From contig PVEQ01000009.1 of the NCBI GenBank assembly GCA_002973575.1, positions 62,001-126,000 on the forward strand: DNA of 64,000 nucleotides. Direction: 5' to 3'. Below the pieces are notes generated by a model that saw only the letters and a program-made list of their open reading frames with translations, had not been told where the DNA came from and searched no databases. Numbering within the stretch: position 1 is the stretch's first letter; the number at the start of each line of letters is the position of its first letter. This document shows positions 25,790 to 60,541 of this stretch, in pieces. The stretch comes from Sediminibacterium magnilacihabitans (GTDB lineage Bacteria; Bacteroidota; Bacteroidia; Chitinophagales; Chitinophagaceae). The position numbers were made by a program, and so were the translations under genes.

Positions 25790-26719
25790 CTACAGGAAAT
25801 CATCTGCTGCCCGGTACGCTTTCACAAGCGCCAGTTCCCCTTCTTTTCCCGGCAGCGCATTTCCATGCTCCATGCCCAGCACCCCCTTGTATCCTTTGTT
25901 ATAGATATGCTTGAAGATATTGTGGTAATTCATTTCTCCTGTGCCGGGCTCTTTCCGTCCGGGATTATCGCCAATCTGGAAATAACCGATCTCATCCCAT
26001 ACTTTATTGATATTGCTGATGATATTCCCTTCATTCCGTTGCATGTGGTACATATCGAAAAGTATCTTACAGGCCGGGCTGTTGACGGCTTTACAAATCG
26101 CATAGGTCTGGTCTGTATGCCGTAAAAAAAGATCAGGCGTATCGCTCAGGGGTTCCAGTACCATTACCAGTCCATGCGGTTCCAGTACTTCTGCTCCCCT
26201 GCGCAGTGTTTCTATTACATTGGCCGTTTGAATGCCTTCCGGCAGGTTGCGATCGTAATTGCCCGGCACCACGGTGATCCATTTAGCACGGCAGCGTTTA
26301 GCCACATCTATTGAAGTTTTGCAGTATTCAATGAACTTATCACGCCATTCTTTTTTTCCGCTGCACATGGAAGTTTGCAAGGGCCAGTTGTCGAACACAT
26401 TCACGAATACGCCCATGGTCATGCCCAGCTTCTCGAGTGTGTCGCCGATCTTTTGCTGCATCTCGGGACTGCGGTTCATCATACCATTGTCTTCAATGGC
26501 CCGGAAACCCAGGTTGTACGCGAATTTGATCTGGTCGATAAAATCGTTACCGGCATGGTTACGGAACATGCCGTCGTGGATACCATAATTACAATGGAAG
26601 GGGTTTTCTTCCAACGGCTGGTTGGTATTGTTTTTTTTCTCGGAGGCAAACATTTCACTGGTAGTGAGCAAAGCGCCGCTTGCCAGCAAACCCTGTTGCA
26701 TAAATTTTCTGCGAAGCAT
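25790..26719 (-). CDS. Tat-exported sugar isomerase/epimerase-like TIM-barrel protein
   Basis: 309 residues. The start MLRRKFMQQGLLASGALL resembles a twin-arginine export signal. The body is a xylose-isomerase-like TIM barrel of the hydroxypyruvate isomerase group: KWITVVPGNYDRNLP, LVMVLEPLSD, KILFDMYHMQRNEG and YFQIGDNPGRKEPGTGEMNY supply the Glu, Asp, His and Glu metal ligands. It may act on a keto sugar in the periplasm. An open frame continues upstream to 27295 but overlaps apbE on the other strand and lacks family character, so the ATG at 26719 is used. Confidence 0.82.
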   Translation of the reverse strand: MLRRKFMQQGLLASGALLTTSEMFASEKKNNTNQPLEENPFHCNYGIHDGMFRNHAGNDFIDQIKFAYNLGFRAIEDNGMMNRSPEMQQKIGDTLEKLGMTMGVFVNVFDNWPLQTSMCSGKKEWRDKFIEYCKTSIDVAKRCRAKWITVVPGNYDRNLPEGIQTANVIETLRRGAEVLEPHGLVMVLEPLSDTPDLFLRHTDQTYAICKAVNSPACKILFDMYHMQRNEGNIISNINKVWDEIGYFQIGDNPGRKEPGTGEMNYHNIFKHIYNKGYKGVLGMEHGNALPGKEGELALVKAYRAADDFL

Positions 26720-46587: not shown

Positions 46588-47019
46588 CTAATGTTTAGAC
46601 CCTTTAGATAATGTTCGGATATAGGCCACCAACTCCCATCGCTGCTTTTCCGTGAAAGCAGATTTGTATTGAGGCATCGGTGTTCTCCCTTCACTTATTT
46701 TATAGAATATATCTCCGTCAGTTTCACGCAGCATGATGATGGAACTATGATCGGCAGGCTTAGGATTTAGTGCAGCCGCTGCCGGGCCGTCTCCTTTACC
46801 TTTGCCTCCATGGCAAGGGGCGCAATTGGCTGTATATAAAGTTCTCCCCTCCTTTATTGCTGCCTGGTTATCGGCCATGGGATTATTGAGATTGATATAT
46901 TCTTTGGGAACAAGCCAGGGTTTTGATTGTGCTGATAATTGACATAAAGGGATAATAGAAGCGAATAGCACAACCATTATCAATTGAGCAGGTTTACTGC
47001 ATGATGATCGGATATCCAT
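46588..47019 (-). CDS. Secreted monohaem cytochrome c
   Basis: 143 residues from the ATG at 47019 (MDIRSSCSK). A signal segment (LIMVVLFASIIPLCQLSAQS) is followed by the haem site CAPCHG at 66-71, GKGDGPAAAALNPKP and a distal-Met loop (GRTPMPQYKSAF), a class I cytochrome c of the kind used in respiration. The ATG at 47070 would add 17 residues lying in the leader, downstream of the TAATTTTG box, so the shorter start is favoured. It heads a three-gene unit controlled by the dual-site promoter at 47068-47132. Confidence 0.82.
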   Translation of the reverse strand: MDIRSSCSKPAQLIMVVLFASIIPLCQLSAQSKPWLVPKEYINLNNPMADNQAAIKEGRTLYTANCAPCHGGKGKGDGPAAAALNPKPADHSSIIMLRETDGDIFYKISEGRTPMPQYKSAFTEKQRWELVAYIRTLSKGSKH

Positions 47020-47067: not shown

Positions 47068-47132
47068 CAAAATTATAGTACGTATTGCTGCAGGTATATG
47101 ATTGAAGTCAGCCGGGCGAATGATTTAAATTA
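47068..47132 (-). promoter_or_regulatory. Dual CRP/FNR-type promoter module of the cytochrome-porin unit
   Basis: On the minus strand: distal site 47121-47132 (TAATTTAAATCA, one arm base off), proximal site 47099-47110 (TGACTTCAATCA), and -7 box 47068-47075 (TAATTTTG). Site centres are 51.5 and 29.5 bp upstream of the first T of the box, the same geometry as in five other modules in the window. The cytochrome ATG is 49 bases downstream of the box. Confidence 0.8.
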
Positions 47133-47138
47133 ACAGGT

Positions 47139-47194
47139 AGCTTATTAAAAAAAGAAGCACCCATTTGTCCGGGCGCTACTTCTTTTAATAAGCT
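47139..47194 (-). terminator. Terminator after the haloperoxidase gene
   Basis: AGCTTATTAAAA, AAA, GAAG and the complementary CTTCTTTTAATAAGCT (47179-47194) form a long stem closed by a GC-rich loop region. The gene at 47232 ends just upstream on the minus strand. The AT-rich flanks suit termination in both directions and separate it from the cytochrome promoter. Confidence 0.65.
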
Positions 47195-47231
47195 ATCTCT
47201 TTAGTATTTGTTGTGCGGCCTTGTTAATTGG

Positions 47232-47771
47232 CTATTTGTCAGCCCCATCGTTCTTTGCACGGGTAATAGCATAATTACCAATATTCGTTCCTACTTGCAA
47301 CCCAACAGCACAATCTGACCGGTAGTGTATACCACCTGCCATCCCTGAAAAAGACGCTTCCTGTGCCATCGCAGTATAAGCAGCGGCCCTTTCCGTTACA
47401 ATGTATCCTAAGATCGTGGCGGCTGCTCCGCTGAAAGTAGAGTGCCCGGAGATATAAGCAGGGAAATTGGGTATACCGGTTAATGTTTTAATGGCCGGGT
47501 TCATCTGTGTGGGCCTTGGATTGAAATAATAATACTTGGTATTCCAGCATACAATAGCTGCATCCATCAGGCTCATGTTCAGTAATGCCATATCCCTCGC
47601 CCATCTTACTTCACTGAAATTTTTATTGATAAAATCTTCTGCGGCTATCGCATCCCAATGACCAGGAGGTGTATAAGTTCCTACCCCATCTGCCCAAAAT
47701 TGCACAATCCTTATGTTTTCACGTGCAGGGTTCGTTATCAGCTCATGTATCTCTTCTGTTTCCTGTTTCAT
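47232..47771 (-). pseudogene. Vanadium haloperoxidase / PAP2 protein, C-terminal part after a frameshift
   Basis: 179-codon frame containing the catalytic part of a vanadium haloperoxidase-like PAP2 protein: NPRPTQ, ISGHSTFSGAAATILGYI (the SGH motif with catalytic His) and IHYRSDCAVGLQVG (the late Arg/His motif). It directly continues the frame at 47768-48606 but is one base out of phase. Adding one C to the C7 run at 47795-47801 (minus strand) would join them as RPPPPPSTSSAQMKQ. As written the enzyme would be split. The defect may be a sequencing error in a homopolymer. Confidence 0.75.
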
Positions 47772-48606
47772 TTGCGCACTGGAAGTAGATGGCGGAGGGG
47801 GGGCCTCAATGCGCTGACAGTAGCGGTATCGAACAGGAAGGGCGTTACTTTTCCGAACAATGGTAACATGGGCGGCCGTTTCGGCACTTCCAGGCTATAC
47901 CAGGGAGTCTCTCCCTTTGCAGTAGCAGTTGTTTCCAGGTTCGACCAGTCAGCCGGCGTACCCACTGCTTTTCCAGCATTATCCGTACGCGCCCTGGCAA
48001 TAAACACTTGTGCCACCTGCCTTCCCAATGCTTCACCGGCAACGATATCGCTTCTCGTTGCCGCACCCGCCATGATGGTAGCGGTTTCCTGCTCAGAGGC
48101 TTTTGCTTGTATAAAAGCAATTTCAGTGGGGAACAACAACTTCATCATTTCTGCTGTAACGCCTGCCAACACTGCAGCTTCAGAAGGATAAGAAGGCAGG
48201 TCTGTCTGTGATACTTTACTGATGATCGTATTATCTGTTTTATAAGGCGCGGGGCGGTTGTATAGTTTTTTATAGTACCAACAAGCTACCAATGCATCGT
48301 ATTGCGCTGCGCTGATATAAGCATAGGCCCTTGCTGCATATGGCGGATTGGCGAAGGGAAACAACGGATAGGCAAATGGGTTAGCAGCACTGGGTATCGG
48401 ATACGTACCATCGGCATTCTGGTATGGTGGAAGATTGTATTTGGCTACCAGTTCTCGCATCAATTCATTCCATCGCAACACACCCCCGGCAGCCCAGTAC
48501 CTGATGCGGACTTCCTGATCGCCCGTGAGGTTTTTCTGGTATCCTTTGATCTCATTCAGCTCGGCAACAGGGTTAGCAGCAATAGTATGGAAGCAAGCTG
48601 TTTCAA
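47768..48606 (-). pseudogene. Vanadium haloperoxidase / PAP2 protein, N-terminal part, frameshifted
   Basis: The open body (237 codons from the GTG at 48481, with in-frame coding sequence further upstream, such as NEIKGYQKNLTGDQEVRIRY) has the family's helical first half (NLPPYQNADGTYPIPSAANP, then LPSYPSEAAVLAG). Just upstream a lipoprotein signal, starting with TTG at 48606 and reading KQLASILLLLTLLPS, is in another frame and hits TGA. One inserted base near 48556/48557 would give LLPSC followed by NEIKGYQ, a perfect lipobox. With the C7 shift this gene therefore has two single-base deletions. The intact protein would be an exported lipoprotein of about 455 residues. Confidence 0.65.
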
Positions 48607-48766
48607 TACTTTGTTAAGATAATGAAAAAAATAAAACTCAACGAAAAAGGAGCATCAGCTACCTGATCTGTTAGCAATACATAAATATATATTACCGAGT
48701 TGGCTACTAAATCACATAATTCAGAAAATGTAAATAATTGACATATAATATGTTGTGAATTTTACG

Positions 48767-48831
48767 TGAGAACAATCAAATTAGTTGATGATAACCGTCA
48801 ATATTAAGGACATGCTTCCGGAATAGATTTG
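48767..48831 (+). promoter_or_regulatory. Dual CRP/FNR-type promoter module of the DUF892 unit
   Basis: Sites TGAGAACAATCA (48767-48778) and TGATAACCGTCA (48789-48800) precede the -7 box TAGATTTG (48824-48831). Centres are 51.5 and 29.5 bp upstream of the box. The distal site is identical, base for base, to the one before the Balon-like gene, and in both cases its centre is 78.5 bp from the ATG. No -33 TTTG is evident, as expected of an activator-dependent promoter. Confidence 0.85.
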
Positions 48832-48850
48832 TAGAACAAAATTTACGGAT

Positions 48851-49384
48851 ATGCGAGAAGATATTATGGGGCTCACCACATTACACGATCTCATAGATTT
48901 CGATGCCCGGAAATTGAACGGTGCTGAAAGACAATTGGAAAATATATTGCCTGATTGGATAAATAAAGCAAGTTCGCTGTCTCTTAAAAATGTATTGCAG
49001 CAATATCTCGACTTTGTCAGGGACAATATTCAAAAGATAAAAACCTTTATCGCTGAAGAAAAGATCGGATCGCTTTCCTGCACTAACACTATCATGCAAG
49101 CATTTATTTTGGAAACTAGGGAAAAAATGAGCAATTGCAACAACACCGAAATACGGGATGCTTGTTTGCTTTCAAGTATACAGGGCATCAATCATTACAA
49201 AATCAATATGTATGGCACTGTTGCTGCATTCGCAAAAGATCTTGGAAATGAAAAATCAGCAGTCGTTTTTCACCAGGCGAAGTTGAATGAAGAGCAAATT
49301 GATAAGATGCTCTCAAAACAGGCTGAACAGGCCATCAATATGAATGCAGCCAATCCTATTTTATTGTCAAATAAGAATCGCTGA
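48851..49384 (+). CDS. Ferritin-like DUF892 (YciE/YciF-type) stress protein
   Basis: 177 residues, all helical, of the DUF892 family: LHDLIDFDARKLNGAERQLE (first helix with a Glu ligand), EIRDACLLSSIQGINHYKIN and TVAAFAKDLGNEKSAVVF. YciF-type proteins form a ferritin-like diiron fold and are induced by general stress. It has the dual-site promoter just upstream and is followed by a flavoprotein (54-base gap) and an Hsp20 gene (17-base gap), probably in one transcript. Confidence 0.85.
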   Translation: MREDIMGLTTLHDLIDFDARKLNGAERQLENILPDWINKASSLSLKNVLQQYLDFVRDNIQKIKTFIAEEKIGSLSCTNTIMQAFILETREKMSNCNNTEIRDACLLSSIQGINHYKINMYGTVAAFAKDLGNEKSAVVFHQAKLNEEQIDKMLSKQAEQAINMNAANPILLSNKNR

Positions 49385-49438
49385 TCGATCTTATTAATTG
49401 TTATTTGTGTACAATTTTTTGGATTTAAAATATATAAA

Positions 49439-49888
49439 ATGCTGGGTGAATTAAGCAAGGAAAAAATAGAAAACATACTTTCCAGCCAGGTGGTGGGCAG
49501 GCTAGCCTGCAGTGACGGTAATCAACCTTATATTACACCGGTGACTTACATCTTCGATGGAAAATATATTTACGGACAAAGCAACGAAGGGAAGAAATTA
49601 AGCATACTCCGGAAAAATCCGAATGTCTGTTTTGAAGTAGATGTGGTAACAGACATGAGAAACTGGCAAAGTGTAATTATTTATGGAAAATTTGAAGAAC
49701 TGAAAGATGAAATGGCCAGGAACGCCAGGGCTGTTCTTTTTGAAAAAGTGTTTTCATTAATGACCAGCAGCACCATTCATCCTCATGAACATGGGGTAAT
49801 ATCAGCAGTTGACGATAGTAACCGGGTTAAGTACGTAATGTATAGAATTGAGATTTCGAAAATAACCAGCAGATTTGAAAAACAGTAA
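49439..49888 (+). CDS. PNPOx-like FMN-binding flavoprotein
   Basis: 149 residues of the pyridoxamine 5'-phosphate oxidase-like split-barrel fold: VVGRLACSDGNQPYITPVTY, YGQSNEGKKLSILRKNPNVC and WQSVIIYGKFEEL. Such small proteins bind FMN or F420 and reduce diverse substrates. It is not likely to be true PdxH because of its size and missing motifs. It sits between the DUF892 and Hsp20 genes. Confidence 0.83.
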   Translation: MLGELSKEKIENILSSQVVGRLACSDGNQPYITPVTYIFDGKYIYGQSNEGKKLSILRKNPNVCFEVDVVTDMRNWQSVIIYGKFEELKDEMARNARAVLFEKVFSLMTSSTIHPHEHGVISAVDDSNRVKYVMYRIEISKITSRFEKQ

Positions 49889-49905
49889 ATATTAAACTTC
49901 ACCAT

Positions 49906-50331
49906 ATGAAAGAGTCAGCAATTTACCCTGGTGAATATATCCTGCTTCCTGAACTGGAAGTTTTTTTACTTGATACTAAACCAGCGGCTCCGGCGAATGT
50001 GACAGTGCCTCCGATCAATATGACTGAGACCGAAGACTGCTTTAACATAGAAATATCTTTGCCTGGAGTAAAAAGAGAAGATATATTCATTCATATGCAC
50101 AACAATACATTGTTTTTGCTTGTATTGATGAAAAAGATAACAAAAGAAAAGAATGAGAGGTCGAGGATGCACGAATTTGACTCCAATACCTTGAAACGCC
50201 ATATTCCGTTGCCTTCTAATGTAGACCCGGGATTCATGAGTGCGGAATACAGGCAGGGCATCCTGCAGCTCTATATTCCCAAAACTACCCAACAACCGAC
50301 AGATAAGGATACGCAGGTGATTGTTTATTGA
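49906..50331 (+). CDS. Hsp20-family small heat-shock protein, divergent
   Basis: 141 residues with an alpha-crystallin domain (INMTETEDCFNIEISLPGVKREDIFIHMHNNTLFLL ... FMSAEYRQGILQLYIPK). The first IxI/V-like end is short and the N-terminal arm is only about 38 residues. It differs from the second Hsp20 at 50465, so the two may form mixed oligomers. It lies 17 bases after the flavoprotein gene. Confidence 0.8.
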   Translation: MKESAIYPGEYILLPELEVFLLDTKPAAPANVTVPPINMTETEDCFNIEISLPGVKREDIFIHMHNNTLFLLVLMKKITKEKNERSRMHEFDSNTLKRHIPLPSNVDPGFMSAEYRQGILQLYIPKTTQQPTDKDTQVIVY

Positions 50332-50361
50332 ATGCATCTCTGTATAGACAGTTATTTTCAC

Positions 50362-50426
50362 TGATGAATCTCATCATATGCACTGATGGAAATCGTTTGC
50401 TGTGCGTTTTCGGAAAAATAAATTTG
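50362..50426 (+). promoter_or_regulatory. Dual CRP/FNR-type promoter module of the second Hsp20 gene
   Basis: TGATGAATCTCA (50362-50373) and TGATGGAAATCG (50384-50395, last base off) precede the -7 box TAAATTTG (50419-50426). Centres are 51.5 and 29.5 bp upstream of the box. A TTTG follows the proximal site at the distance of a -33 element. The Hsp20 ATG is 39 bases after the box. Confidence 0.8.
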
Positions 50427-50464
50427 TTCTGTAATTATCCATTCAATAATCAAAATATAAAATT

Positions 50465-50908
50465 ATGGGAACACAAACACTTGCAAGGCAATCAGAAAGA
50501 AAGCCTTCATTATTTGATGATTTTTTCAAACCATGGAATGAATGGTTTGGCAATGGTGGTTCATGGGGTCGTACGATGGATGTCCCCGCAGTGAATATTT
50601 CCGAACAAAAAGACGAATATCTGGTATCGCTGGCCGCTCCCGGCATGAAAAAAGATGATTTCAAAATTGATGTTGATGGCAACATCCTCACCATCAGTTC
50701 CGAAAAAGAGGAAAGCAGGGAAGAAAAAGAAAAGAAATTTACCAGGAAGGAATACAGTTATTCGTCGTTTAGCCGCAGCTTCACGTTGCCGGATGAAGTT
50801 AACAAGGAAAAGATCGAAGCAAAGTATGAAGATGGAATTCTTAAAGTTTCCCTGCCTCACAGAGAGGGGGCAAAAATGCCACAGGCGAAACATATCGCTG
50901 TGAAATAA
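50465..50908 (+). CDS. Hsp20-family small heat-shock protein
   Basis: 147 residues. An N-terminal arm (PSLFDDFFKPWNEWFGNGGS) is followed by the alpha-crystallin domain (VPAVNISEQKDEYLVSLAAP, KKDDFKIDVDGNILTI, FTLPDEVNKEKIEAKYEDGI) and ends LKVSLPHREGAKMP. It prevents aggregation of unfolded proteins. It is preceded by its own dual-site promoter and followed after 70 bases by a small membrane protein and an L,D-transpeptidase. Confidence 0.92.
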   Translation: MGTQTLARQSERKPSLFDDFFKPWNEWFGNGGSWGRTMDVPAVNISEQKDEYLVSLAAPGMKKDDFKIDVDGNILTISSEKEESREEKEKKFTRKEYSYSSFSRSFTLPDEVNKEKIEAKYEDGILKVSLPHREGAKMPQAKHIAVK

Positions 50909-50977
50909 GCCTGCTACTGTACGGCTTAGAGCCCTGTCTCTCAGGGTGGCGGGGCTTCTTATATTAACATTTATTGT

Positions 50978-51487
50978 ATGACAGAACTAGATCTCTGGTT
51001 GGATTCTTATGATGATATTTATTCTGATTTTGACAGCCGGCATTACCTCAAACGAAGAATATCAGAAGATTTCCTGTATGAATTGCGCAGAGAAATGAAA
51101 TACAAGGAACATAACGCTGAAGGCCTGTTCCTTTTGCTACCGCAGGAACAAAGGGATGAGGAATCAGAAAAAGTTATTGTAAGCAGCCTTGGCGATTTTT
51201 TCAGGCGCCAATTTCTGTTTCATCAGTACAAATGCCGGGGTAAACTGAGAAATGGCATTTTAACCCTATTAAGTGGGATAATGATCATTCTTCTTAATTC
51301 CTGGACCGATTTTCCTCTTTCTCCTTCCCATGTCATTGTTAGTATTAAAGCCCTGCTGGAACCAGCCGGCTGGTTTTTAATTTGGGCCTCTTTTGATTTT
51401 CTTTTTTATGATTTTACAAGGCTAAAAAATGAAAGGGATTTCTACAAGCTGTTAAGTAAAATACATATTTATTTTAAATCGGCCTGA
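50978..51487 (+). CDS. Unrecognised membrane protein
   Basis: 169 residues, not recognised. A charged N-terminal half (LDSYDDIYSDFDSRHYLKRR) is followed by two membrane helices at about 93-110 (GILTLLSGIMIILLNS) and 125-147 (PAGWFLIWASFDFLFYDFT) and a short basic tail. Location between an Hsp20 and an L,D-transpeptidase, on the same strand with small gaps, suggests an envelope-stress role, which is inference. Confidence 0.7.
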   Translation: MTELDLWLDSYDDIYSDFDSRHYLKRRISEDFLYELRREMKYKEHNAEGLFLLLPQEQRDEESEKVIVSSLGDFFRRQFLFHQYKCRGKLRNGILTLLSGIMIILLNSWTDFPLSPSHVIVSIKALLEPAGWFLIWASFDFLFYDFTRLKNERDFYKLLSKIHIYFKSA

Positions 51488-51532
51488 GTCAATTTGTTTT
51501 CAATATCTAGTTATTAGAAAAATAATAACGCT

Positions 51533-53113
51533 GTGAAATTCAGGGTAATCATATTCATCATTTTACTGTCGAGCTATACGTCCTATTCGCAAATTACTCC
51601 GGACAGGCTGCGAAATTTTATTTTTAACGGGCAATCCACTCCCGGATCGATCCCCCCGTATCCGGCTGAAGTCATAACATTTTACGAAAAACTGGGCTTT
51701 AAAACGGCATGGATACAACAAGAAAATATTGAGGATAGAAATTTTTTGTTAACCGTGCTTAAGCAGTCGGCAAATTGGGGCCTGCAAGATGAATACTATG
51801 CGTCTGACTTCCTTGAAGAATTTTGTAATGGGCATCTTTTATTACGAAATGCCGATGATTCTATGCAAAGAGAAATCAGAATTACCGGCATAGCTATTCA
51901 TTTTTACAGGAGCATTGCATTCGGCAATATCATGCCACAACTTCGTTACGACGGGCTTGACTATCAGCCCGCATGCTATGATATTCCAGTATTATTAGCC
52001 AATGCCATTAAGACGAAGTCTATACAACTATTAAAAGAGCAGCTTACCCCACCTCTGGTCGAGGTTAATACCCTGGAAAATAAAATAAAACAACTCAATG
52101 CCAGGATGTCTGAAGGCGATTTTAAAGAGGTGGTCATAGCGTCCAATAAGGTTAATTCAAATAATACTGCGCTGGTACTTAAACTCTATCAATTGGCAAT
52201 TTTGGATTCTGTCAGTACCCATCTGCCTGAAACTTCATTGAAAAAAGCAATCCGGGAGGCGCAACGCCAGTTTAATTTATTATCCGATGGGATGCTTAGC
52301 TCAACTATTTTGGAACAATTGAACGTGCCGCTGTACAAAAGATTACAACAACTCAGCCTCTCCATTAATTATTACCGATGGCTGTATTGCCTTATCCAGG
52401 GCCGGACAGTAATTGTTGTAAATATCCCAGCCGCATATATGAATGTATACCGGGACAACCGGTCCATCCTGGAAATGAGAATGGTACTTGGAAAAACGTC
52501 TACCCCAACCCCAACGCTGGCAAGCAGGATCAACAAAGTGATTCTGTATCCTTATTGGCATGTTCCATTTAGTATTGTTGCCAAAGAGCTATTGCCCCTG
52601 ATCAAGGCAAATCCTGCATTCATTCATGTCGGTAATTTCCAGGTATTGAACAGTGCGGGGAAAATCATGAACCCTTACAACATAAAATGGCAGGCTTTAA
52701 ACGTCAAAAATTTCCCATATACCATTCGCCAAAGTACCGGATGCGATAATGCCTTGGGGCTGCTAAAACTGGAGTTTTATAGTCCTTTCGGTGTTTATTT
52801 ACATGATACTCCATTCAAAAGTGCCTTCATGCTGAATAAAAGGTATTTCAGTCATGGGTGCCTGAGGATGGAAAATCCCATGGAACTGGGTCGGCTTGTT
52901 TTAAAAGCCCATCATTTGGCAATTGATACACTTGAACAGAAAGGCTGTCTCATAAACCATTCCCCAATAGCCGTACCTGCAGATGACCCCATGCCCGTGA
53001 TTGTATGGTATAACCCGGCAGGGTGCGATTCAACCGGCAGAGTCCGGTTTTACGAAGACATTTATAGAAAATTTCATTGGGAAGAAAAATCAGCAAAAAA
53101 ATTAGTTGAATAA
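51533..53113 (+). CDS. L,D-transpeptidase, YcbB-like
   Basis: 526 residues from a GTG, with a signal peptide (VIIFIILLSSYTSYSQ), a helical N-terminal scaffold as in YcbB/LdtD, and a YkuD catalytic domain from about residue 290: VVNIPAAYMNVY, ILYPYWHVPFSI, then the active-site motif RYFSHGCLRMENPMELG with the nucleophile Cys. It forms 3-3 peptidoglycan cross-links, typical of stationary or stressed cells. No separate peptidoglycan-binding repeat was recognised. It converges with the regulator gene, with a 12-base overlap of 3' ends. Confidence 0.88.
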   Translation: MKFRVIIFIILLSSYTSYSQITPDRLRNFIFNGQSTPGSIPPYPAEVITFYEKLGFKTAWIQQENIEDRNFLLTVLKQSANWGLQDEYYASDFLEEFCNGHLLLRNADDSMQREIRITGIAIHFYRSIAFGNIMPQLRYDGLDYQPACYDIPVLLANAIKTKSIQLLKEQLTPPLVEVNTLENKIKQLNARMSEGDFKEVVIASNKVNSNNTALVLKLYQLAILDSVSTHLPETSLKKAIREAQRQFNLLSDGMLSSTILEQLNVPLYKRLQQLSLSINYYRWLYCLIQGRTVIVVNIPAAYMNVYRDNRSILEMRMVLGKTSTPTPTLASRINKVILYPYWHVPFSIVAKELLPLIKANPAFIHVGNFQVLNSAGKIMNPYNIKWQALNVKNFPYTIRQSTGCDNALGLLKLEFYSPFGVYLHDTPFKSAFMLNKRYFSHGCLRMENPMELGRLVLKAHHLAIDTLEQKGCLINHSPIAVPADDPMPVIVWYNPAGCDSTGRVRFYEDIYRKFHWEEKSAKKLVE

Positions 53114-54160
53114 ATTTTCAAGTTTCTCTTGATTAAGAATACTGATTCGACCATCATGTATATCGATCAGCTTTTCATTTTTGAAATCACTGAGCGTTCT
53201 TATGAGAGACTCTGTAGCAGTGCCTGCCAAAGTAGCCAGGTTTTCACGGCTGAGGTCAATGTCGAAATTATCGTTGCTATTTTTCCTATATTTTGCCTGG
53301 ATCAGCAAAAGCGCATCTGCAACCTTTTTCCGGAGGGAATTGTAGGCGAGGTTTAAAAGTTGGCTTTCTTTTTCCGAAATGTTCTTCGCTAATAACTGAA
53401 TAAATTTTCTGGCAATTTCAGGGTTCTTGTTAATTAATTCGTCGAAATCCTCTTTGGGTATTACTGCCAGTTCCGCTTCCTCCAACGTCTCAGCAGTATC
53501 CTTATAGACAGATTTCTCTAAAAGAGCAACATGCCCAACAAAATCCCCGGTACTGAACAGATCGGTTACCAGCTCTTTGCCATCCTTATTGGTTTTATAT
53601 GCCTTTACTTTTCCCTTTACAATATAATATAGCCGGTTGGGATGATTGCCTTCAGAATAGACAGTTTGTCTTTTCTTATACCGGTTGATATCCCTGCCCT
53701 CAGTGAATGCCATCAATTCCTTTTTGCCGGATGATGCTTCAAGAAGCTGCCTGATGCCGATCATGTCCGCATTGAATTCCTGTTTCAATAAATCCAGCTT
53801 CTTGATACGGCTACTGACTGCATTCAATAGTTCTGTCCCATCAAATGGTTTTATAAGGTAATCGTCTGCCCCTAGTTCCATTCCTTTCCGAAAGTCGTCA
53901 CGCTCAGCCTTGGCAGTGAGAAAGATAAATGGCGTATTCTTGATTTTCTCATTATTTTGAATAGCATGAAGCACTCCATATCCATCAAGCTCAGGCATCA
54001 TAATATCGCAAATAATTAAGTCTGGCTTATTTTCGATCGCTTTAATTACTCCTATTTTTCCGTTTTCAGCCGTAATCACCATATAATTTGACAATTCCAA
54101 TATTTCTGAAGTATTACTTCTGATATCTTCGTTGTCTTCAATGATTAATATCTTTTTCAT
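53102..54160 (-). CDS. Receiver-CRP/FNR fusion transcription regulator
   Basis: 352 residues in three parts. Residues 1-118 are a CheY receiver (MKKILIIEDNEDIRS, Asp52 in IICDIMMPELDG, KPFDG). About 145-265 are a cyclic-nucleotide-binding-type beta roll (YIVKGKVKAYKTNKDGKELV). About 270-350 are an HTH_Crp domain (DLSRENLATLAGTATESLIR). The recognition helix keeps the Glu and Arg (ESLIR) that contact the GA of TGA in CRP and FNR, but lacks CRP's Arg180 (Thr instead). No Cys cluster for an iron-sulfur centre is seen, so the signal arrives by phosphorylation from the kinase, whose stop overlaps by 23 bases. It is the candidate activator of the six dual-site promoters. Confidence 0.85.
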   Translation of the reverse strand: MKKILIIEDNEDIRSNTSEILELSNYMVITAENGKIGVIKAIENKPDLIICDIMMPELDGYGVLHAIQNNEKIKNTPFIFLTAKAERDDFRKGMELGADDYLIKPFDGTELLNAVSSRIKKLDLLKQEFNADMIGIRQLLEASSGKKELMAFTEGRDINRYKKRQTVYSEGNHPNRLYYIVKGKVKAYKTNKDGKELVTDLFSTGDFVGHVALLEKSVYKDTAETLEEAELAVIPKEDFDELINKNPEIARKFIQLLAKNISEKESQLLNLAYNSLRKKVADALLLIQAKYRKNSNDNFDIDLSRENLATLAGTATESLIRTLSDFKNEKLIDIHDGRISILNQEKLENLFN

Positions 54161-55358
54161 GATGATTGGTTTTTGCGTTAAAGATTAGTATAAACTCTGT
54201 ACCTTCCTGCAATTCGCTTTTACATTCGATAGAGCCATTCATCAATTCCACATATTTAGATACGATGTGCAACCCAAGGCCTGTTCCCTGTATACCGGTA
54301 ACATTGGTTCCCCGGAAAAACCTTTCCATCAAATGCTTTTGATCATCATTCGAAATGCCAATACCCCGATCTTTTATTGAGAAAACAAAATGATGATCAT
54401 CGGAATATGTCTTGATGCTGATAAAACTTGCTTCCGGCGAAAATTTGCTGGCATTCGAAACCAGGTTCATGATAATATGTTTCAGCAAAGAGGGATCTAA
54501 TAAAACCATAGGGTTGCCATCATGATCATAATCAAGTACCTGCCCTTTCTTCAGGTTGTTTTTTATTTCTTCCATTACCGATTCGACCAGTTGTTGAATA
54601 TCAAATTCAGCATATTTAACATGAATTTTTCCTTCTTCAATTTTATCAACGCTTAAAAAATCGTTTAAGATGTCGTTCAACATATTTGCAGATGAAATAA
54701 TACGCTTCAGGTGCCTGTCCCGCTTTGGCTGTTCATTGTCAGCATTGTATTGCTCTAATAAATAGACCGATGAGAGTATGGTGCTTAAAGGAGTTCGAAA
54801 TTCATGAGAAGCCATAGAGACAAACCGGGATTTAAGTTCACTCAACTCCTTCTCTTTTTCCAGCAATCCGGAAAGCTCTTCCTTAGACAATTCCAATTGT
54901 TGTATAGCGGTTTTGAGTTCTTTTGTTCGTTGTTCAACAGTTCCTTCTAATTCATCATTGAGCTTTTTAATTTCTATTTCTGTCTTTTTTCGGATAGAGA
55001 TATCGCTCACAAAAGCTATGATGCAGTGTTCGCCGTCTCTTATATAGTTGCTCAGGCTTACTTCCACAGGGAATTCGGTTCCATCTTTTTTAACCGCAAA
55101 TAAATCCATGCCAACTCCCATAGGCCTGTTCTTCGGATGGGCTCTATATTGATCTCTGTGCTGTAAATGTTTAGCATGATACCTTGTTGGAATGAGCATC
55201 TCTATCTTTTTATTTAATACGTCCTCTTTACTGTAACCAAAAAGCATTAAAGCAAACAGGTTAATATTGATAATCTCTCCACGGCTATTTATTTCTATTA
55301 TACCCATGCTGGCGTGCTCCAGTAATGCATCGAATCTTTGCTTATCCTGCGTAATCAT
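54138..55358 (-). CDS. PAS histidine kinase, main part
   Basis: 406 residues from the ATG at 55358. A PAS domain (ASMGIIEINSRGEIININLF to VSDISIRKK) is followed by a coiled coil, HisKA (FVSMASHEFRTPLSTILSS, phospho-His) and HATPase_c (NLVSNASKFSPEAS, GIGISNDDQ, GTGLGLHIVSKYVEL). It is cytosolic, with no membrane segment. Its frame stays open upstream to the A9 run at 55496-55504 and reads CEQAEYISKKGRPFWGE, so the protein was almost certainly longer and is joined to the fragment at 55492-55758. It is coupled to the receiver-CRP gene and is the likely phosphate donor. Confidence 0.85.
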   Translation of the reverse strand: MITQDKQRFDALLEHASMGIIEINSRGEIININLFALMLFGYSKEDVLNKKIEMLIPTRYHAKHLQHRDQYRAHPKNRPMGVGMDLFAVKKDGTEFPVEVSLSNYIRDGEHCIIAFVSDISIRKKTEIEIKKLNDELEGTVEQRTKELKTAIQQLELSKEELSGLLEKEKELSELKSRFVSMASHEFRTPLSTILSSVYLLEQYNADNEQPKRDRHLKRIISSANMLNDILNDFLSVDKIEEGKIHVKYAEFDIQQLVESVMEEIKNNLKKGQVLDYDHDGNPMVLLDPSLLKHIIMNLVSNASKFSPEASFISIKTYSDDHHFVFSIKDRGIGISNDDQKHLMERFFRGTNVTGIQGTGLGLHIVSKYVELMNGSIECKSELQEGTEFILIFNAKTNHHEKDINH

Positions 55359-55491
55359 TCGTTCGGTTTCTTTTACACTATTAATTTTGTCAATTACAAC
55401 GATATAATAAATACTTTCCTTATTCTTAAATAGCCTGATCGACAGTTCTCCCCAAAACGGCCGCCCTTTTTTAGATATATATTCTGCCTGC

Positions 55492-55758
55492 TCACAAAAA
55501 AAAACCTTCCTTCTCTGCTATGGTAATACGGTTTTTTACCTCATCATCTGTAAGTTCGATTTTCCTGAGTTGATTTATTTGCATCATATCCATTTTGCCA
55601 GGCGGATCAACTTCAAACAACCTAAACCAGGCGTCATTACGAAATATGATTTTTGCAGTATCTTTTTCTACAATGGCGGCGCCTTCTTTTATACTATTAC
55701 ACAGTGTTATCAAGAAATCATTTCTTGCAATTTTCATACTGGGAGCCGGGGCTTGCAT
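55492..55758 (-). pseudogene. N-terminal PAS domain of the kinase, cut off by a frameshift
   Basis: 88 codons from the ATG at 55758 give the first half of a PAS domain (IKEGAAIVEKDTAKIIFRND, then RKIELTDDEVKNRITIAEKEG) and stop at FFL. The T9 run on the coding strand (plus 55496-55504) has one base too many: with eight, the frame would continue GFFCEQAEYISKKGRPFWGE into the main kinase, giving about 540 residues and two PAS domains. The cause may be a sequencing error or slippage on the run. Confidence 0.7.
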
Positions 55759-55914
55759 ACAGGCATTTATTTAGTGTCGACAGCGGTGAAAGCACCACCA
55801 AATTACTCAACTACAATAAATAATCCTATGCTGATTACCTCCTCCAATGACCCCTTGATAAAAGATTAAATACCAATCATTTAAAAAAGAAAAAAGTATA
55901 CCATAGGCAAGAAT

Positions 55915-56001
55915 TCATTTCCCAAACCAGTTCATTACCTTTTTCTGCCTTAGTCTCTCTTTTTCCTTGCGGAGATCACTGGTATTTTTAACCTTCTTCA
56001 T
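55915..56001 (-). CDS. Tiny basic ORF overlapping the holin-like gene end
   Basis: 28 residues, starting MKKVKNTSDLRKEKERLRQK and ending NWFGK. Its ATG lies inside the 3' end of the holin-like gene (14-base overlap), a coupling often seen for the small helical companion of such membrane proteins. It is very short and charged; related companions are longer as far as I recall, so it may be truncated. Confidence 0.4.
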   Translation of the reverse strand: MKKVKNTSDLRKEKERLRQKKVMNWFGK

Positions 56002-56329
56002 CACTTCCTTTATTGGACAATTGTTTTAATATTGCATTCATAATGTGGGACTGAAGCAGTTGTTCTTTGACGGCCCAAACAACCAGTCCTGCTAAAAAAT
56101 ACAAGCCTGCAACAATAAGGAATCCACAATATAACTGCCCAGTCCATTTACCTAAAGCAAAAGCCAGCGCAATACTTATAAAGACGACAAGAAGCAGGTA
56201 CAGAATCGAAACTATTGCAACAGCAATAAAAGCTGCTACCATCCCGGACGCCTCTCAATTTAACGGCATTTATGCGGTTATTGATATACTCTTTTATGTG
56301 ACCGGTCAGATCATCGGCTTTTCAAACAT
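55988..56329 (-). pseudogene. Holin-like (phage-holin superfamily III) membrane protein with frameshifts
   Basis: The readable core (84 codons from 56242) has two membrane helices, FIAVAIVSILYLLLVVFISI and CGFLIVAGLYFLAGLVVWAV, and a short tail (LLQSHIMNAILKQL), the pattern of the small envelope proteins annotated as phage holin family. Family members normally start with an amphipathic helix; a matching stretch (DDLTGHIKEYINNRINAVKL) is present upstream in another frame, after an ATG at 56329 (MFEK). One A missing near 56318-56321 and one extra G near 56257 would restore a single frame of about 114 residues. The shifts compensate, so start and core are in the same frame, but stop codons lie between. 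Confidence 0.6.
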
Positions 56330-56392
56330 TTAACCCACTTTAATGTTTAATAAAAGGATTATTGATTTCAGGATGATGGTATTGATACAGAT

Positions 56393-56457
56393 ACAAGCTA
56401 TCTATCGGTTGGCGCATATTAAATGACAATACTCATGAGGGCTCATGATCATCATCA
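56393..56457 (-). promoter_or_regulatory. Dual CRP/FNR-type promoter module of the holin-like gene
   Basis: On the minus strand: distal TGATGATGATCA (56446-56457) and proximal TGAGTATTGTCA (56424-56435), both perfect, then TAGCTTGT (56393-56400), an imperfect -7 box. Centres are again 51.5 and 29.5 bp upstream of its first T. The preferred ATG at 56329 is about 63 bases downstream of the box. Confidence 0.65.
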
Positions 56458-56471
56458 TATTCAAAGACAGA

Positions 56472-57398
56472 TTATTGTGTAAGAAGTAAATATAAACGAT
56501 CGGCATCTCTCTTGTGGCACAACTCGGTTCCGGGGTTCATGGTGGCAGCGGTGCCACAAGCTACGCCATATTGCAATGCCTGTTTCAGACTGCTTCTATT
56601 TGCCAGACTGTACACGATACCGGCAACCATACTATCGCCGGCCCCTACAGTACTTTTTACCTTCACCTGGGGAGGCGTTACACTATAGGTCTCATCCCGA
56701 GTAACCAGGATAGCTCCGTCTCTACCCAGTGAAACTACGATCACCTCGCATTGGTATTGCCGAATAACCTCCTTTGCTGTTTTTTCAACCTGGTCAATTT
56801 TGATTTTGGGTACTCCAACCAATGTACCTAGCTCAGCTAAATTTGGTTTGATCAGGTAAGCGCCCAGGGTAACGGCTTCTTTTAATGCATCTCCGGATAC
56901 ATCAACAATAAGTTTTGCGTTTTTCTTTTTAGCACTTCGTGCTAACTCTGCAAAAACATTAGCGGAAACACCTGGTGGCAGACTCCCGCTTAGAACAATA
57001 AAGCGAACATCCGCCGTTTCATTCAGGGCATTAAGGCATTGTTTCCACTCGTTCTTGCTCAATTTTCCGGCAGGCATACCCAACCGGTACTGATTGCCCG
57101 TACCCTCATCCTTGATGATGAAATTCTCTCTTGTTTCATTAGCAGTATCGATAATAACGGTATGAATGTTTTCTTTTTCAAGGAGGTGAGCAAGAAATTT
57201 ACCTGTACAGCCGCCAGACGGTAATATGCAGGTTGCATTTCCTCCTATCTTTTTTATCGCCCTCGCTACATTGATACCTCCTCCGCCAGGCTCCAGTTTT
57301 ATTTTTGAGCAACGTAGTTTATTCTCAGGAATTAAGGCGGGAATTGATACGCTTTTGTCTATACAGGGGCTGAAAGTAATGGTAACTATGAAAGACAT
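56472..57398 (-). CDS. pfkB: PfkB-type 6-phosphofructokinase
   Basis: 308 residues of the ribokinase-like family, from the ATG at 57398 (MSFIVTITFSPCIDKSVSI). The substrate motif is EPGGGGINVARAIKKIGG, and the catalytic site is VKSTVGAGDSMVAGIVYSL, with the base Asp. It resembles E. coli PfkB and the 1-phosphofructokinase group, so it phosphorylates a fructose phosphate in glycolysis. It is the last gene of the Balon-USP-LDH-PfkB unit. An ATG at 57407 would overlap the ldhA stop. Confidence 0.88.
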   Translation of the reverse strand: MSFIVTITFSPCIDKSVSIPALIPENKLRCSKIKLEPGGGGINVARAIKKIGGNATCILPSGGCTGKFLAHLLEKENIHTVIIDTANETRENFIIKDEGTGNQYRLGMPAGKLSKNEWKQCLNALNETADVRFIVLSGSLPPGVSANVFAELARSAKKKNAKLIVDVSGDALKEAVTLGAYLIKPNLAELGTLVGVPKIKIDQVEKTAKEVIRQYQCEVIVVSLGRDGAILVTRDETYSVTPPQVKVKSTVGAGDSMVAGIVYSLANRSSLKQALQYGVACGTAATMNPGTELCHKRDADRLYLLLTQ

Positions 57399-57403
57399 AA
57401 AGA

Positions 57404-58405
57404 TCAAATTGCTTTGAGCCTTAATTCATGTTTATTGATTTTCCCTTTTTTCCAGCAATCGATATTATAAAAGGTGGTTGCTGCAATATTGGCCAGCGCT
57501 TCGTTTGTCGCAAACGCCTGGTGTGGAGTAATGAGTACATTGGGCATATCCAGTAATTTCTTCAACAGAGGATCTTCCAGGTTTTTTCCTGAAAGATCAT
57601 TAAAAAAGAGGCCCCTTTCATTTTCATATACATCGGCTCCATAGTAACCTATCTGACCGCTCTCTAATCCTGCAATAACATCGGCCGTATTCACGCAACC
57701 ACCACGGCAGGTATTTATAAGCATGACGCCGCGTTGCATGAGGTCAATGAATTTCTTATTGATTAAATATTTTGTCTGGGGTGTAAGACAAGTGTGGATG
57801 CTGATGATATTAGATTCACTGCATAACCTCTGAAGAGAAACGTACTCAAATCCATATTGTAGTTTCAGTTTTTCGTTCTCCAGGATGTCGTGTGCCAATA
57901 GATGACATCCAAATCCATGCAATATTTTAATCAGTACACCGCCGATTTTACCAACCCCGATGACACCGATGGTTTTGTTGTGCAGATCAAATCCTATCAG
58001 GTCAGAAATAGTGAAATTATGCAGATGCACTTGCCTGTCTGAAAGAATAATTCTTCTGTTCAGAGATAACATCAGCGCAACAGTATGTTCGGCAATAGCA
58101 TATGGAGAATAGTCGGGTACATTAGCTACTCGTATTCCCAATTCCGTCGCTTTCTTCAAATCTATGTTGTCGTGCCCGGCAGCACGGATAGCAATAAATT
58201 TTACTCCGTTTTGATGCAATCTTTTCAATACATCCGCGGAGCCGTCGTCTGCTGTAAAAACACTAACTGTATCATAGCCATCCGCTTCATCGGCAGTTTT
58301 CAACGATAATGGCGTTTCTGTAAATGAAATATCATTATGAAGCAGATTAGCCTTTAATAGATAAGACTGCTCGAAATCTTTTGTGCTGTAAAAAAGTGTT
58401 CTCAT
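57404..58405 (-). CDS. ldhA: D-lactate dehydrogenase (2-hydroxyacid dehydrogenase family)
   Basis: 333 residues. The NAD-binding part has KTIGVIGVGKIGGVLIKILH, then CLTPQTKYLINKKFIDLMQRG and INTCRGGCVNTADVIAGLES (catalytic Arg), GADVYENERGLFF and ITPHQAFATNEA (catalytic His). The YENERGLFF segment is typical of fermentative D-LDH. It reduces pyruvate to D-lactate to regenerate NAD+ without oxygen. It lies 11 bases after the USP gene in the same operon. Confidence 0.92.
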   Translation of the reverse strand: MRTLFYSTKDFEQSYLLKANLLHNDISFTETPLSLKTADEADGYDTVSVFTADDGSADVLKRLHQNGVKFIAIRAAGHDNIDLKKATELGIRVANVPDYSPYAIAEHTVALMLSLNRRIILSDRQVHLHNFTISDLIGFDLHNKTIGVIGVGKIGGVLIKILHGFGCHLLAHDILENEKLKLQYGFEYVSLQRLCSESNIISIHTCLTPQTKYLINKKFIDLMQRGVMLINTCRGGCVNTADVIAGLESGQIGYYGADVYENERGLFFNDLSGKNLEDPLLKKLLDMPNVLITPHQAFATNEALANIAATTFYNIDCWKKGKINKHELRLKAI

Positions 58406-58416
58406 TTTAACGGATT

Positions 58417-59244
58417 CTATTCATGAATGGCCACAACAGGTACATGCGTATGAAGTACGAGTCGTTTTGAATGGCTGTATTGAAATATTTTACTGATAAG
58501 ACCGTGTTTTTTGGGAATGATGATGAGTAAATCAAGCTTGTTCATTTCTGCAAATTCAGCAATTCCCTGCTCAACGGCCGGTTTATTGATGAAATGGTAC
58601 TTAGGATGCATCTCGCCAAGCATTTCCTGCAACAGGCCGGACTCCGCTATGGTTTCAGAGCTGAGTGCCTCTTTGGTTTTATCGCTTACATGCAATACAT
58701 GCAGTTCTGCCTGGAATTCTTCAACCCATTTCTGGATCTCTTTTACTCGCACTGATTCTATCACTTCTCTGAAATCGCAGGCGAGCCCGATTTTCCTGAT
58801 GTTTTTGAATTTTACCAACGGTGGCACAATCAATAGTGGCCATCGCACCTGCTCTAGGGCGCCGGTTGTTTTGCCGCCAAATAAAAAGCGCTCGATTCCG
58901 TTGGCGGTTCCTGCTCCCATCACTACGGCAAATGGCTTAATGGTTGCACAATAAGTTGTTAACTTGGAAAGCACACTACCCATCTCTATTTCATTATGGA
59001 TAATTGTTTTTCCTCCTGTTCGGACTAATAATTTTTCCTTGAGCTTCTCCATCTCCTGTTGTACCTCCTCTTCCATTAGTTCAGTGCTATAGGGAGGCAT
59101 AGGTACTTCTCCTACAGGTATGGGGATGGAATAAACGTGAAACAGCGTCAACCGGGCGCTAAGCATGCAAGCCATGTCGGCTGCATAGTCCACAGCATTA
59201 AGGGAAACCGGTGAAAAATCGGTCGGAGCAATAATCGTTCTCAT
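58417..59244 (-). CDS. Tandem universal stress protein
   Basis: 275 residues from the ATG at 59244 (MRTIIAPTDFSPVSLNAVDY), the standard USP start; an ATG at 59268 would overlap the upstream gene. It has two UspA domains: the first has an ATP-binding-like MGAGTANGIERFLFGGKTTG, while the second (from about residue 140) is more degenerate. USPs act in survival of starvation and hypoxia. It starts 1 base after the Balon-like gene ends. Confidence 0.9.
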   Translation of the reverse strand: MRTIIAPTDFSPVSLNAVDYAADMACMLSARLTLFHVYSIPIPVGEVPMPPYSTELMEEEVQQEMEKLKEKLLVRTGGKTIIHNEIEMGSVLSKLTTYCATIKPFAVVMGAGTANGIERFLFGGKTTGALEQVRWPLLIVPPLVKFKNIRKIGLACDFREVIESVRVKEIQKWVEEFQAELHVLHVSDKTKEALSSETIAESGLLQEMLGEMHPKYHFINKPAVEQGIAEFAEMNKLDLLIIIPKKHGLISKIFQYSHSKRLVLHTHVPVVAIHE

Positions 59245-59245
59245 A

Positions 59246-60343
59246 TTAATAAAATTTAATAAGTGCAATATGATGGTAATCTTTCAACAGGTCATTATCT
59301 ACAAACTCCACATCGCCGCCGTGTTCAAGCACTGCTTGTATTACTTCATCTACTGCATCCTTGATGGTTGAAAATTTATTATAGGGTTTAGATGGCATAT
59401 AGATGGCCCCATTACTGCTGCCACGCTGCGCCGCACACATATAGTCCTTTTCAACCACGAGCAAACGTCCATTCCGGCCCCTGGCTTCCTTCCATACCTC
59501 TCTTATTCCAATGCCTAATTTCTTTCTGCCGGCAGCGTCTTCTAACTGATTCAACAAGTCTTTTTGAATTATTCTTTGCCAATCTTCCATATATGGCTTG
59601 AGGACCCCTGCCAGCTCCTGTACCGGGGTATCTTCATAATTTCCATGTATATATTGAACAACGGCTTTTGAGTGCCTGGTGAGGCTTTTAAAATGCCCCG
59701 ATATCCTTTTAGGGCCTAACAAAAAAAGAGGTAGTCGGTAGGCATTGAGGATTAACTCCAGCGTATTATCGATATGATGGAGGAACTTATCCATCACTAT
59801 TTCTTTACGGCTGGAAGCGTCTGAAAAATTTGCCACCTTTTCCGGAATGTCATTTATATAGGCGTATATCGATTCAGGAGCGTCTGATAAGATTTTGACA
59901 AGCGTATTAGATTTGCCTAAAAACACCTTGCTTTGCTTGCCACTGATAATCAAAACAAGGTATTGACGCAACTGCTTTTTGCTGTATACCAGGTCGCGTA
60001 TTTCAAAAGAATCGCTGACGATAACTTTTTGCATAACAGGTATAGCGAGGTATAATACTTTCTCAAATACAGGCGATAGATATAGAGCAATACTTTTTTT
60101 GTTTGTACTGAAATTCAAATTGGCTATCAATGTTTTTAGTTTATCCATCATTAACTCAACCATTTCGGCGGGATAATTATTCTTCAGCTCCTGTTCCACT
60201 TTATCGGTAGCAAGTTTCAATGAATATGTCAATTCAGATTTCGCGTTCATTCTAGGATCAAAGGGCAAAATAATTGACACGGCTGGACGATAATAAATCG
60301 CTCCCATTACTTCGCTTAGTGCTGGTGTCATAACAGGATTCAT
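59246..60343 (-). CDS. Balon-like (eRF1/Pelota-fold) putative ribosome hibernation factor
   Basis: 365 residues. An N-terminal part (AVSIILPFDPRMNAKSELTY) is followed by a central domain (LRQYLVLIISGKQSKVFLGK) and a C-terminal part (LLVVEKDYMCAAQRGSSNGA, then DAVDEVIQAVLEHGGDVEFV). This is the layout of the bacterial baeRF families related to archaeal-eukaryotic release factor 1, which now include Balon-type hibernation factors that bind the A site of idle ribosomes. No GGQ catalytic loop is seen, as expected of a non-hydrolytic factor. It heads an operon with USP, LDH and PfkB and has a perfect dual-site promoter. The Balon assignment is from memory of the family and needs a structural search. 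Confidence 0.72.
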   Translation of the reverse strand: MNPVMTPALSEVMGAIYYRPAVSIILPFDPRMNAKSELTYSLKLATDKVEQELKNNYPAEMVELMMDKLKTLIANLNFSTNKKSIALYLSPVFEKVLYLAIPVMQKVIVSDSFEIRDLVYSKKQLRQYLVLIISGKQSKVFLGKSNTLVKILSDAPESIYAYINDIPEKVANFSDASSRKEIVMDKFLHHIDNTLELILNAYRLPLFLLGPKRISGHFKSLTRHSKAVVQYIHGNYEDTPVQELAGVLKPYMEDWQRIIQKDLLNQLEDAAGRKKLGIGIREVWKEARGRNGRLLVVEKDYMCAAQRGSSNGAIYMPSKPYNKFSTIKDAVDEVIQAVLEHGGDVEFVDNDLLKDYHHIALIKFY

Positions 60344-60362
60344 AGTATACGGTTTAAGAAAA

Positions 60363-60427
60363 CAAAGCTAACCTTGGGCATCCCCTGAAATCATGACCAG
60401 CATCATCAAAATATTTGATTGTTCTCA
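60363..60427 (-). promoter_or_regulatory. Dual CRP/FNR-type promoter module of the Balon operon
   Basis: On the minus strand: TGAGAACAATCA (60416-60427) and TGATGCTGGTCA (60394-60405), then -7 box TAGCTTTG (60363-60370). Centres are 51.5 and 29.5 bp upstream of the box, and the distal centre is 78.5 bp from the ATG at 60343. The distal site is identical to that before the DUF892 gene, and flanking bases (ATTACnTGA, TTGATGAT) are partly shared too. Confidence 0.85.
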
Positions 60428-60476
60428 GGTAATAATATTCGGCAACAGTAAAACTTTCGCCGAGATAGTCATTACA

Positions 60477-60541
60477 TGACAAAGATTAGCCATTAAGCTG
60501 CACCTGGTCAGCTTTTATGATATCACCTATTGGTAGTTTTG
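60477..60541 (+). promoter_or_regulatory. Dual CRP/FNR-type promoter module of the USP-MgtA unit
   Basis: TGACAAAGATTA (60477-60488) and TGCACCTGGTCA (60499-60510), each one arm base off, precede -7 box TAGTTTTG (60534-60541). Centres are 51.5 and 29.5 bp upstream of the box, and the distal centre is 78.5 bp from the ATG at 60561. It stands back to back with the Balon module, with 49 bases between the two, so each unit has its own pair of sites. Confidence 0.78.

Follow-up and report, generated by a model that had tools for sequence, protein, structure and literature searches.

Which protein reads a 65-bp arrangement of sites that recurs in six putative promoters within a 64,000-nt stretch of Sediminibacterium magnilacihabitans DNA, and is that arrangement a genuine regulatory element? 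The stretch (hereafter the window) corresponds to bases 62001-126000 of contig PVEQ01000009.1 (C9), which belongs to a 4.04-Mb genome in 66 contigs. Each module consists of a distal and a proximal TGA-N6-TCA palindrome with centers 22 bp apart, followed after a gap of 23 bp by a TAnnTTTG box. Our comparative analysis showed that this architecture is genuine, rigid, and widely distributed. The conserved module is likely bound by two dimers of the CRP/FNR type, and its likely reader in this genome is a receiver-CRP/FNR fusion protein, encoded in the window and predicted to be phosphorylated by an adjacent PAS histidine kinase; we assign this reading a probability of roughly 0.6.

The double-operator module in the window

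A preliminary description of the sequence had located six modules, and all six were found in the sequence at the positions and on the strands given there.

47068-47132, minus strand: module 1 (distal site 47121-47132, one base off; proximal site 47099-47110; box 47068-47075); downstream, a cytochrome c gene at 46588-47019, or with a longer start
48767-48831, plus strand: module 2 (distal site 48767-48778; proximal site 48789-48800; box 48824-48831; no mismatch anywhere); downstream, genes for DUF892, PNPOx-like, and Hsp20 proteins (48851-50331)
50362-50426, plus strand: module 3 (distal site 50362-50373; proximal site 50384-50395, one base off; box 50419-50426); downstream, an Hsp20 gene at 50465-50908
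56393-56457, minus strand: module 4 (distal site 56446-56457; proximal site 56424-56435; box 56393-56400, two bases off); the closest gene, 55988-56242 (84 aa), starts 151 bp away, and this promoter assignment is the weakest of the six
60363-60427, minus strand: module 5 (distal site 60416-60427; proximal site 60394-60405; box 60363-60370; no mismatch anywhere); downstream, a close-packed run of baeRF, Usp, 2-hydroxyacid dehydrogenase, and PfkB genes (60343 down to 56472)
60394-60458, plus strand: weak opposite-strand reading of the module 5 operator, with two mismatches, both in the box
60477-60541, plus strand: module 6 (distal site 60477-60488, one base off; proximal site 60499-60510, one base off; box 60534-60541); downstream, a 274-aa protein that looks Usp-like by eye and has no Pfam match, then a Mg-type P-type ATPase (TIGR01524)

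As had been claimed, eight of the 12 palindromes are perfect and four are one base off, and five of the six boxes are perfect. In three units (48767, plus strand; 60363, minus strand; 60477, plus strand), the ATG lies 78.5 bp from the distal center and 20 bp past the end of the box. The first gene of the run behind module 5 (59246-60343, minus strand) encodes a release-factor-like protein of baeRF family 3.

Rigidity and distribution of the module

A scan of the S. magnilacihabitans genome for the full pattern with up to two mismatches found 17 places (nine on C9, three each on C1 and C13, and one each on C2 and C26), two pairs of which use one operator on opposite strands; the reversed pattern gave none. 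The module thus occurs well above chance in its own genome, and the six-member regulon proposed earlier was an undercount, with at least 17 matched places on five contigs and recurrence throughout the class. This genome contains 27 exact double sites whose gap is 3-30 bp; seven of these have a spacing of 22 bp, compared with a mean of 0.74 per other spacing (Poisson P = 1.3e-5). In a neutral sample of 296 Bacteroidota genomes, 149 matches with at most one mismatch were detected in 41 genomes and 31 of 139 genera, vs a single match in all genomes for the reversed pattern; per-genome counts were read by eye from the genome listing. The palindrome TGA-N6-TCA is common on its own (a single site plus box at one mismatch or fewer gave 44 matches in the own genome and 26 when reversed), which would suit an explanation by chance; however, the counts for the double module, 17 vs 0 and 149 vs 1, refute that explanation, and a repeated mobile sequence fares no better because the bases between the fixed positions vary freely, so that the module is not a copied repeat. 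We regard the likelihood of either origin as negligible.

The spacing was further examined in 106 stretches, comprising 80 loci that encode the fusion together with stretches from the own genome and from relatives. Perfect double sites numbered 85 at a spacing of 22 bp and 0-5 at every other value between 13 and 45. Within the 80 fusion loci, which were picked for having the fusion and are therefore not a neutral sample, the combination of spacing 22 and box gap 23 accounted for 115 matches at two mismatches or fewer; spacing 22 with other box gaps held 4-20 matches, and other spacings held 0-4 per combination, except for 13 at spacing 23 with box gap 23. An unbiased tandem test was made from either site. 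Where a proximal site and box were perfect, a distal site lay at 22 bp within two mismatches in 38 of 62 cases (27 perfect), leaving about two in five such places with no distal partner at that distance; where a distal site and box were perfect, the proximal site was present within two mismatches in 46 of 50. These results support the earlier proposal of a CRP/FNR-type double operator whose two sites are exactly 22 bp apart and whose distance to the box is fixed.

Minority variants in the 106 stretches had a box gap of 24 (12 at one mismatch or fewer) or a spacing of 23 (six). Runella-type genomes carry perfect modules at spacing 23, not 22 (L072:689-754, L087:688-753, L088:672-737), and genome G190 has three exact double sites at spacing 22 and four at 23. 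Three consecutive perfect palindromes, each spaced 22 bp from the next, are present at G150:C5:324937-324992. In the S. magnilacihabitans genome (G000), an exact double site at spacing 23 (C31:26395-26429) stands outside the 22-bp set; a weak HTH_Crp_2 match (26451-26540) lies about 20 bp from it.

Placement and predicted transcription start sites

The modules lie mostly ahead of genes and not in coding sequence: only 15 of 157 operators were wholly within a called open reading frame, although 90.7% of the bases are coding, and a start codon followed within 300 bp in 143 of the 157, often 15-25 bp past the box (107 stretches). Opposite-strand module pairs on one operator numbered 14, and two divergent promoters may share a single double site. 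The operator consensus was refined to TGAY-N4-RTCA, often followed by T; the interval between the proximal site and the box has no conserved bases.

The classic class I optimum is -61.5, and 22 bp is about two helical turns. The accessible part of the start-site map of Flavobacterium psychrophilum (PMC9723704) places the TAnnTTTG box at -12 to -5; the centers of the sites would therefore fall at -41.5 and -63.5. If the box is so placed, the class II position proposed for the proximal site stands, and the class I position proposed for the distal site is missed by 2 bp. At the predicted +1 column, 95 of 140 modules have a purine, compared with 47% in the six neighboring columns (P = 6e-7). An upstream A+T-rich element was also considered and rejected, as the module alignment showed no such peak.

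Genes behind the modules

Of 142 modules outside open reading frames, 129 had a complete first gene, and 127 of these were scanned after removal of a duplicate and of a gene truncated at a contig end. The most frequent families were Usp (11), COX1 (10), FixO (10), Hsp20 (8), PAS histidine kinase (8), and the metal-ATPase domain ATPase-cat_bd (6), which we take to be typical of FixI; RMMBL nuclease (4), HTH_Crp_2 (4), BON (3), PNPOx (3), FixS (3), and cytochrome c (3) followed. A control set of 127 other genes was taken from these loci; in it, Usp, COX1, FixO, Hsp20, and the metal-ATPase domain reached at most three each, none being among the families listed for the control.

Genes that follow modules in the own genome include hemN (TIGR00538, above cut-off), a ric-like gene (ScdA_N above and TIGR03652 below cut-off), and those for Usp, Hsp20, DUF892, and cytochrome c. 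Modules at C1:108012, C1:110622, C1:139400, and C2:197534 of this genome precede genes for small, Cys-rich proteins that no Pfam family matches and that look metal-binding by eye. The input is likely low oxygen or a related redox or nitric oxide signal, because the predicted targets are the cbb3 oxidase, hemN, the ric-like repair gene, Usp, Hsp20, and 2-hydroxyacid dehydrogenase. According to the accessible part of the F. psychrophilum report, expression of the cbb3 oxidase and of heme-synthesis genes goes up at low oxygen in that species (PMC9723704).

The receiver-CRP/FNR fusion and its kinase

The candidate reader and its partner are encoded by overlapping genes between modules 3 and 4.

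53102-54160, minus strand: fusion protein of 352 aa, with a receiver (residues 4-115), cNMP_binding (160-246), and HTH_Crp_2 (279-350)
54138-55358, minus strand: partner histidine kinase with PAS, HisKA, and HATPase_c, overlapping the fusion gene

The fusion belongs to the CRP/FNR superfamily, with cNMP_binding (81.8 bits) followed by HTH_Crp_2 (55.7 bits), both above their cut-offs. In 22 fusion sequences, D52, T82, and K104 of the receiver were invariant, so that the phospho-acceptor set of a response regulator is present; the sole invariant cysteine was C51, in the receiver, and these sequences have no FNR-type N-terminal cysteine cluster. The RSA motif of CRP (cAMP contacts, R82 and S83 region) is not kept by eye, in a part of the alignment that is gapped. 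Among loci with at least 1.5 kb upstream, 55 of 70 have a kinase with an H-box directly upstream of the fusion. The PAS domain of the kinase gave its best PDB matches with the heme-PAS chains of DosP and FixL, and the position of the heme-binding His is kept in the alignment.

The recognition helix of the fusion, G-T-A-T-E-S-L-I-R, aligns with G-C-S-R-E-T-V-G-R of CRP, so that the fusion retains E181 and R185 (as E317 and R321, which do not vary among the 22 sequences) and has T in place of R180. The published rule, as given in the accessible part of PMC1274295, is that R180 pairs with G3 and E181 with A6 of the half-site. A helix with T at R180 and E181 kept would therefore be expected to read a half-site that lacks G3 and has A6, as is seen; G is rare (0.06-0.10) at the G3 position of the module half-sites. 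For the helix groups, the modules of the own genome were assigned to the fusion by assumption. Covariation between helix residue 184 and the outer base of the half-site was discarded as a line of evidence, since every grouped helix in the scanned loci carries I at this residue, the remaining groups being small.

A second fusion with the same helix (GTATESLIR) is present on C13, as the last gene of a run that consists of a perfect module, the ric-like gene, a kinase, and the fusion; under a permissive rule, a same-strand module stands ahead of the gene chain in 16 of 68 fusion loci. The predicted structure of the fusion has confident domains, a loose linker (127-145), and a predicted template modeling score (pTM) of 0.39, which makes it uninformative on domain packing. 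No PDB chain spanning the receiver and the CRP part together was present among the best 60 of 309 chains.

In the mechanism that we propose, the PAS histidine kinase would phosphorylate the fusion, which would then bind pairs of TGAY-N4-RTCA sites as two dimers lying next to each other on the same DNA face. As a class II activator, the dimer centered at -41.5 would make the contact with RNA polymerase, that at -63.5 would strengthen it, and low-oxygen and stress genes would be activated by the two cooperating dimers.

Co-occurrence of the fusion and the module

A fusion, defined as a full-length match above 300 bits and read by eye from the listing, was present in 43 of the 296 genomes. Modules were found in 29 of these 43 genomes vs 12 of the other 253 (Fisher P = 2.6e-20). 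The association held by genus (22 of 34 genera with the fusion vs 9 of 105 others; P = 2e-10), inside the class (29 of 43 vs 6 of 30 genomes; P = 1e-4), and in the Flavobacterium-like genus g17 (3 of 4 vs 0 of 13 genomes; P = 0.006).

Several observations weigh against the fusion as reader or against activation by the module. The presence of the fusion is not required for modules, nor is it enough for them, because 14 of the 43 fusion genomes, mostly of family f5, have no module at one mismatch or fewer, and 12 genomes have modules but no fusion (seven with a stand-alone homologue and five with a single match that may be due to chance). Two fusion genomes, G103 and G107, show no excess at 22 bp (0 of 23 and 0 of 15 exact double sites). 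The PAS kinases are equally common in the control and among module-led genes (8 each) and the control has more HTH_Crp_2 genes (13 vs 4), so these two families provide no evidence of module control; the control genes also include the cbb3 parts FixH (5), FixG_C (4), and FixP_N (3). The purine peak at the predicted start site is a modest one, and A is also frequent in columns 73-74. The kinase in the window is split over two frames, 55498-55758 and 54141-55502 (minus strand), which overlap by a few bases; residues 1-87 of its relatives match one frame and residues 86-539 the other. Sequencing error, a genuine break, and a programmed shift are all possible causes of the split, and because of it the kinase-fusion pair on C13 may be the working pair of this genome.

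Other possible readers and modes of action

The 12 module genomes that lack the fusion raise the question of whether another protein is the main reader. Seven of them (G017, G076, G111, G150, G194, G271, and G273) encode a stand-alone CRP/FNR protein whose N-terminus bears CxxC and whose helix is GTATE-S/T-x-I-R, and 22-bp double sites are enriched in such genomes (G017, 3 of 13; G150, 6 of 32; G273, 4 of 20; in G271, three among 10 of 17 places). FNR-like proteins of this kind, possibly with an iron-sulfur cluster, could thus be the main readers, with the fusion as a hitch-hiker or secondary reader nearby. We consider this unlikely: among the proteins read from the nine HTH_Crp_2 matches of the own genome, the helix GTATESLIR was limited to the two fusions and no such stand-alone protein was seen, and g17 genomes with such a protein but no fusion had modules in 0 of 13 cases (four of the stand-alone proteins were read). 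The tree separates the stand-alone group from the fused one, which is weakly supported (87/78), and within stretches of 8-19 kb around the seven stand-alone genes, modules lie near only three. Under our preferred reading, the stand-alone regulator of those other genomes, whose N-terminus has CxxC and whose recognition helix is nearly that of the fusion, is the likely reader of the module there. Bridging by the receiver was dropped as a cause of the 22-bp spacing; it is not needed, as genomes with receiver-less candidate readers also favor 22 bp.

Three further Cys-rich CRP/FNR proteins of the own genome (L089, L090, and L093) have an N-terminus resembling C-x4-C-x2-C-x2-C, and all six genomes with close relatives of them have both the fusion and modules. 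The helix of L089 and L090, Y-E-T-L-F-R, keeps E181 and R185, which speaks for these proteins and against the fusion; however, close relatives (>230 bits) occur in only six of the 296 genomes, all with the fusion, vs 41 with modules, and the three genes all lie outside the module stretches examined. They are too rare to be general readers, and it is improbable that they read the modules in their own genome. A different doubt concerns the mode of action, since CRP/FNR proteins are capable of repression, and the fixed distance could stem from blocking of RNA polymerase or of another activator. The lack of a -33 element was dropped as proof of activation because a -33 signal is nearly missing from the control boxes as well. 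Repressors usually tolerate other registers. A rigid register, together with a center at -41.5 when the box is placed by the accessible part of the PMC9723704 map, is a feature of class II activation, and a repressor operator therefore seems a poor account of the double site. The fusion, as a predicted activator, remains our preferred reader for this genome.

Comparison with known systems

The module resembles class II and class III promoters of Escherichia coli CRP and FNR in having a CRP/FNR-type palindrome at the predicted -41.5 and a second dimer site upstream, with E181 and R185 of the helix kept. However, its second site is always 22 bp away (predicted -63.5), its box is the Bacteroidota TAnnTTTG, and its half-site lacks the outer bases TGTGA or TTGAT. 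With the rhizobial FixL-FixJ-FixK cascade the proposed system shares a PAS histidine kinase, a receiver, a CRP/FNR-type output, and cbb3 oxidase targets, in addition to the alignment with FixL and DosP described above. Unlike that cascade, receiver and CRP/FNR output are in a single fused protein, with no FixJ step and no separate FixK, and the residue aligned to the distal Arg of FixL is Met in the partner kinase, a candidate heme protein.

The mycobacterial DosR dormancy regulon places Usp, Hsp20, PfkB, and a P-type ATPase under a two-component system, and the cargo of the modules is similar; however, DosR has a LuxR/NarL-type output, in contrast to the HTH_Crp_2 of the fusion, and the DNA motifs differ. 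In the accessible part of PMC1274295, the motif core of delta-proteobacterial HcpR1, TGAC-N4-GTCA, is close to TGAY-N4-RTCA, whereas Bacteroides HcpR2 is predicted to recognize GTAAC-N4-GTTAC and to control mostly hcp alone; that part describes no fused receiver for either protein. The earlier statement that the tandem architecture had no prior description in Bacteroidota was not contradicted by full-text searches in a library from which most subscription papers are missing.

Implications

Because 22-bp double sites are enriched in the stand-alone genomes too, we tentatively suggest, at somewhat less than even odds, a broader reading: Bacteroidota may share one rigid two-dimer code (22-bp tandem TGAY-N4-RTCA at -41.5/-63.5, also divergent from a shared operator) that is read interchangeably by a kinase-driven fusion or a cysteine-bearing stand-alone FNR, the sensor being swapped and the geometry kept. 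As part of this reading, the kinase-driven fusion would be FixL-FixJ-FixK collapsed into two proteins.

Bacteroidota have unusual promoters, and few activator-promoter geometries have been described for them. With so rigid a module, a regulon can be predicted across a whole genome from its DNA sequence, and the module names both targets (cbb3 oxidase, hemN, the ric-like gene, Usp, and Hsp20) and a candidate kinase-regulator pair. It also offers a natural test case for activation of a phylum-specific RNA polymerase by CRP/FNR-type proteins. If phospho-switched and cysteine-switched proteins do read one code, the module would be a clear instance of sensor replacement under a fixed promoter.

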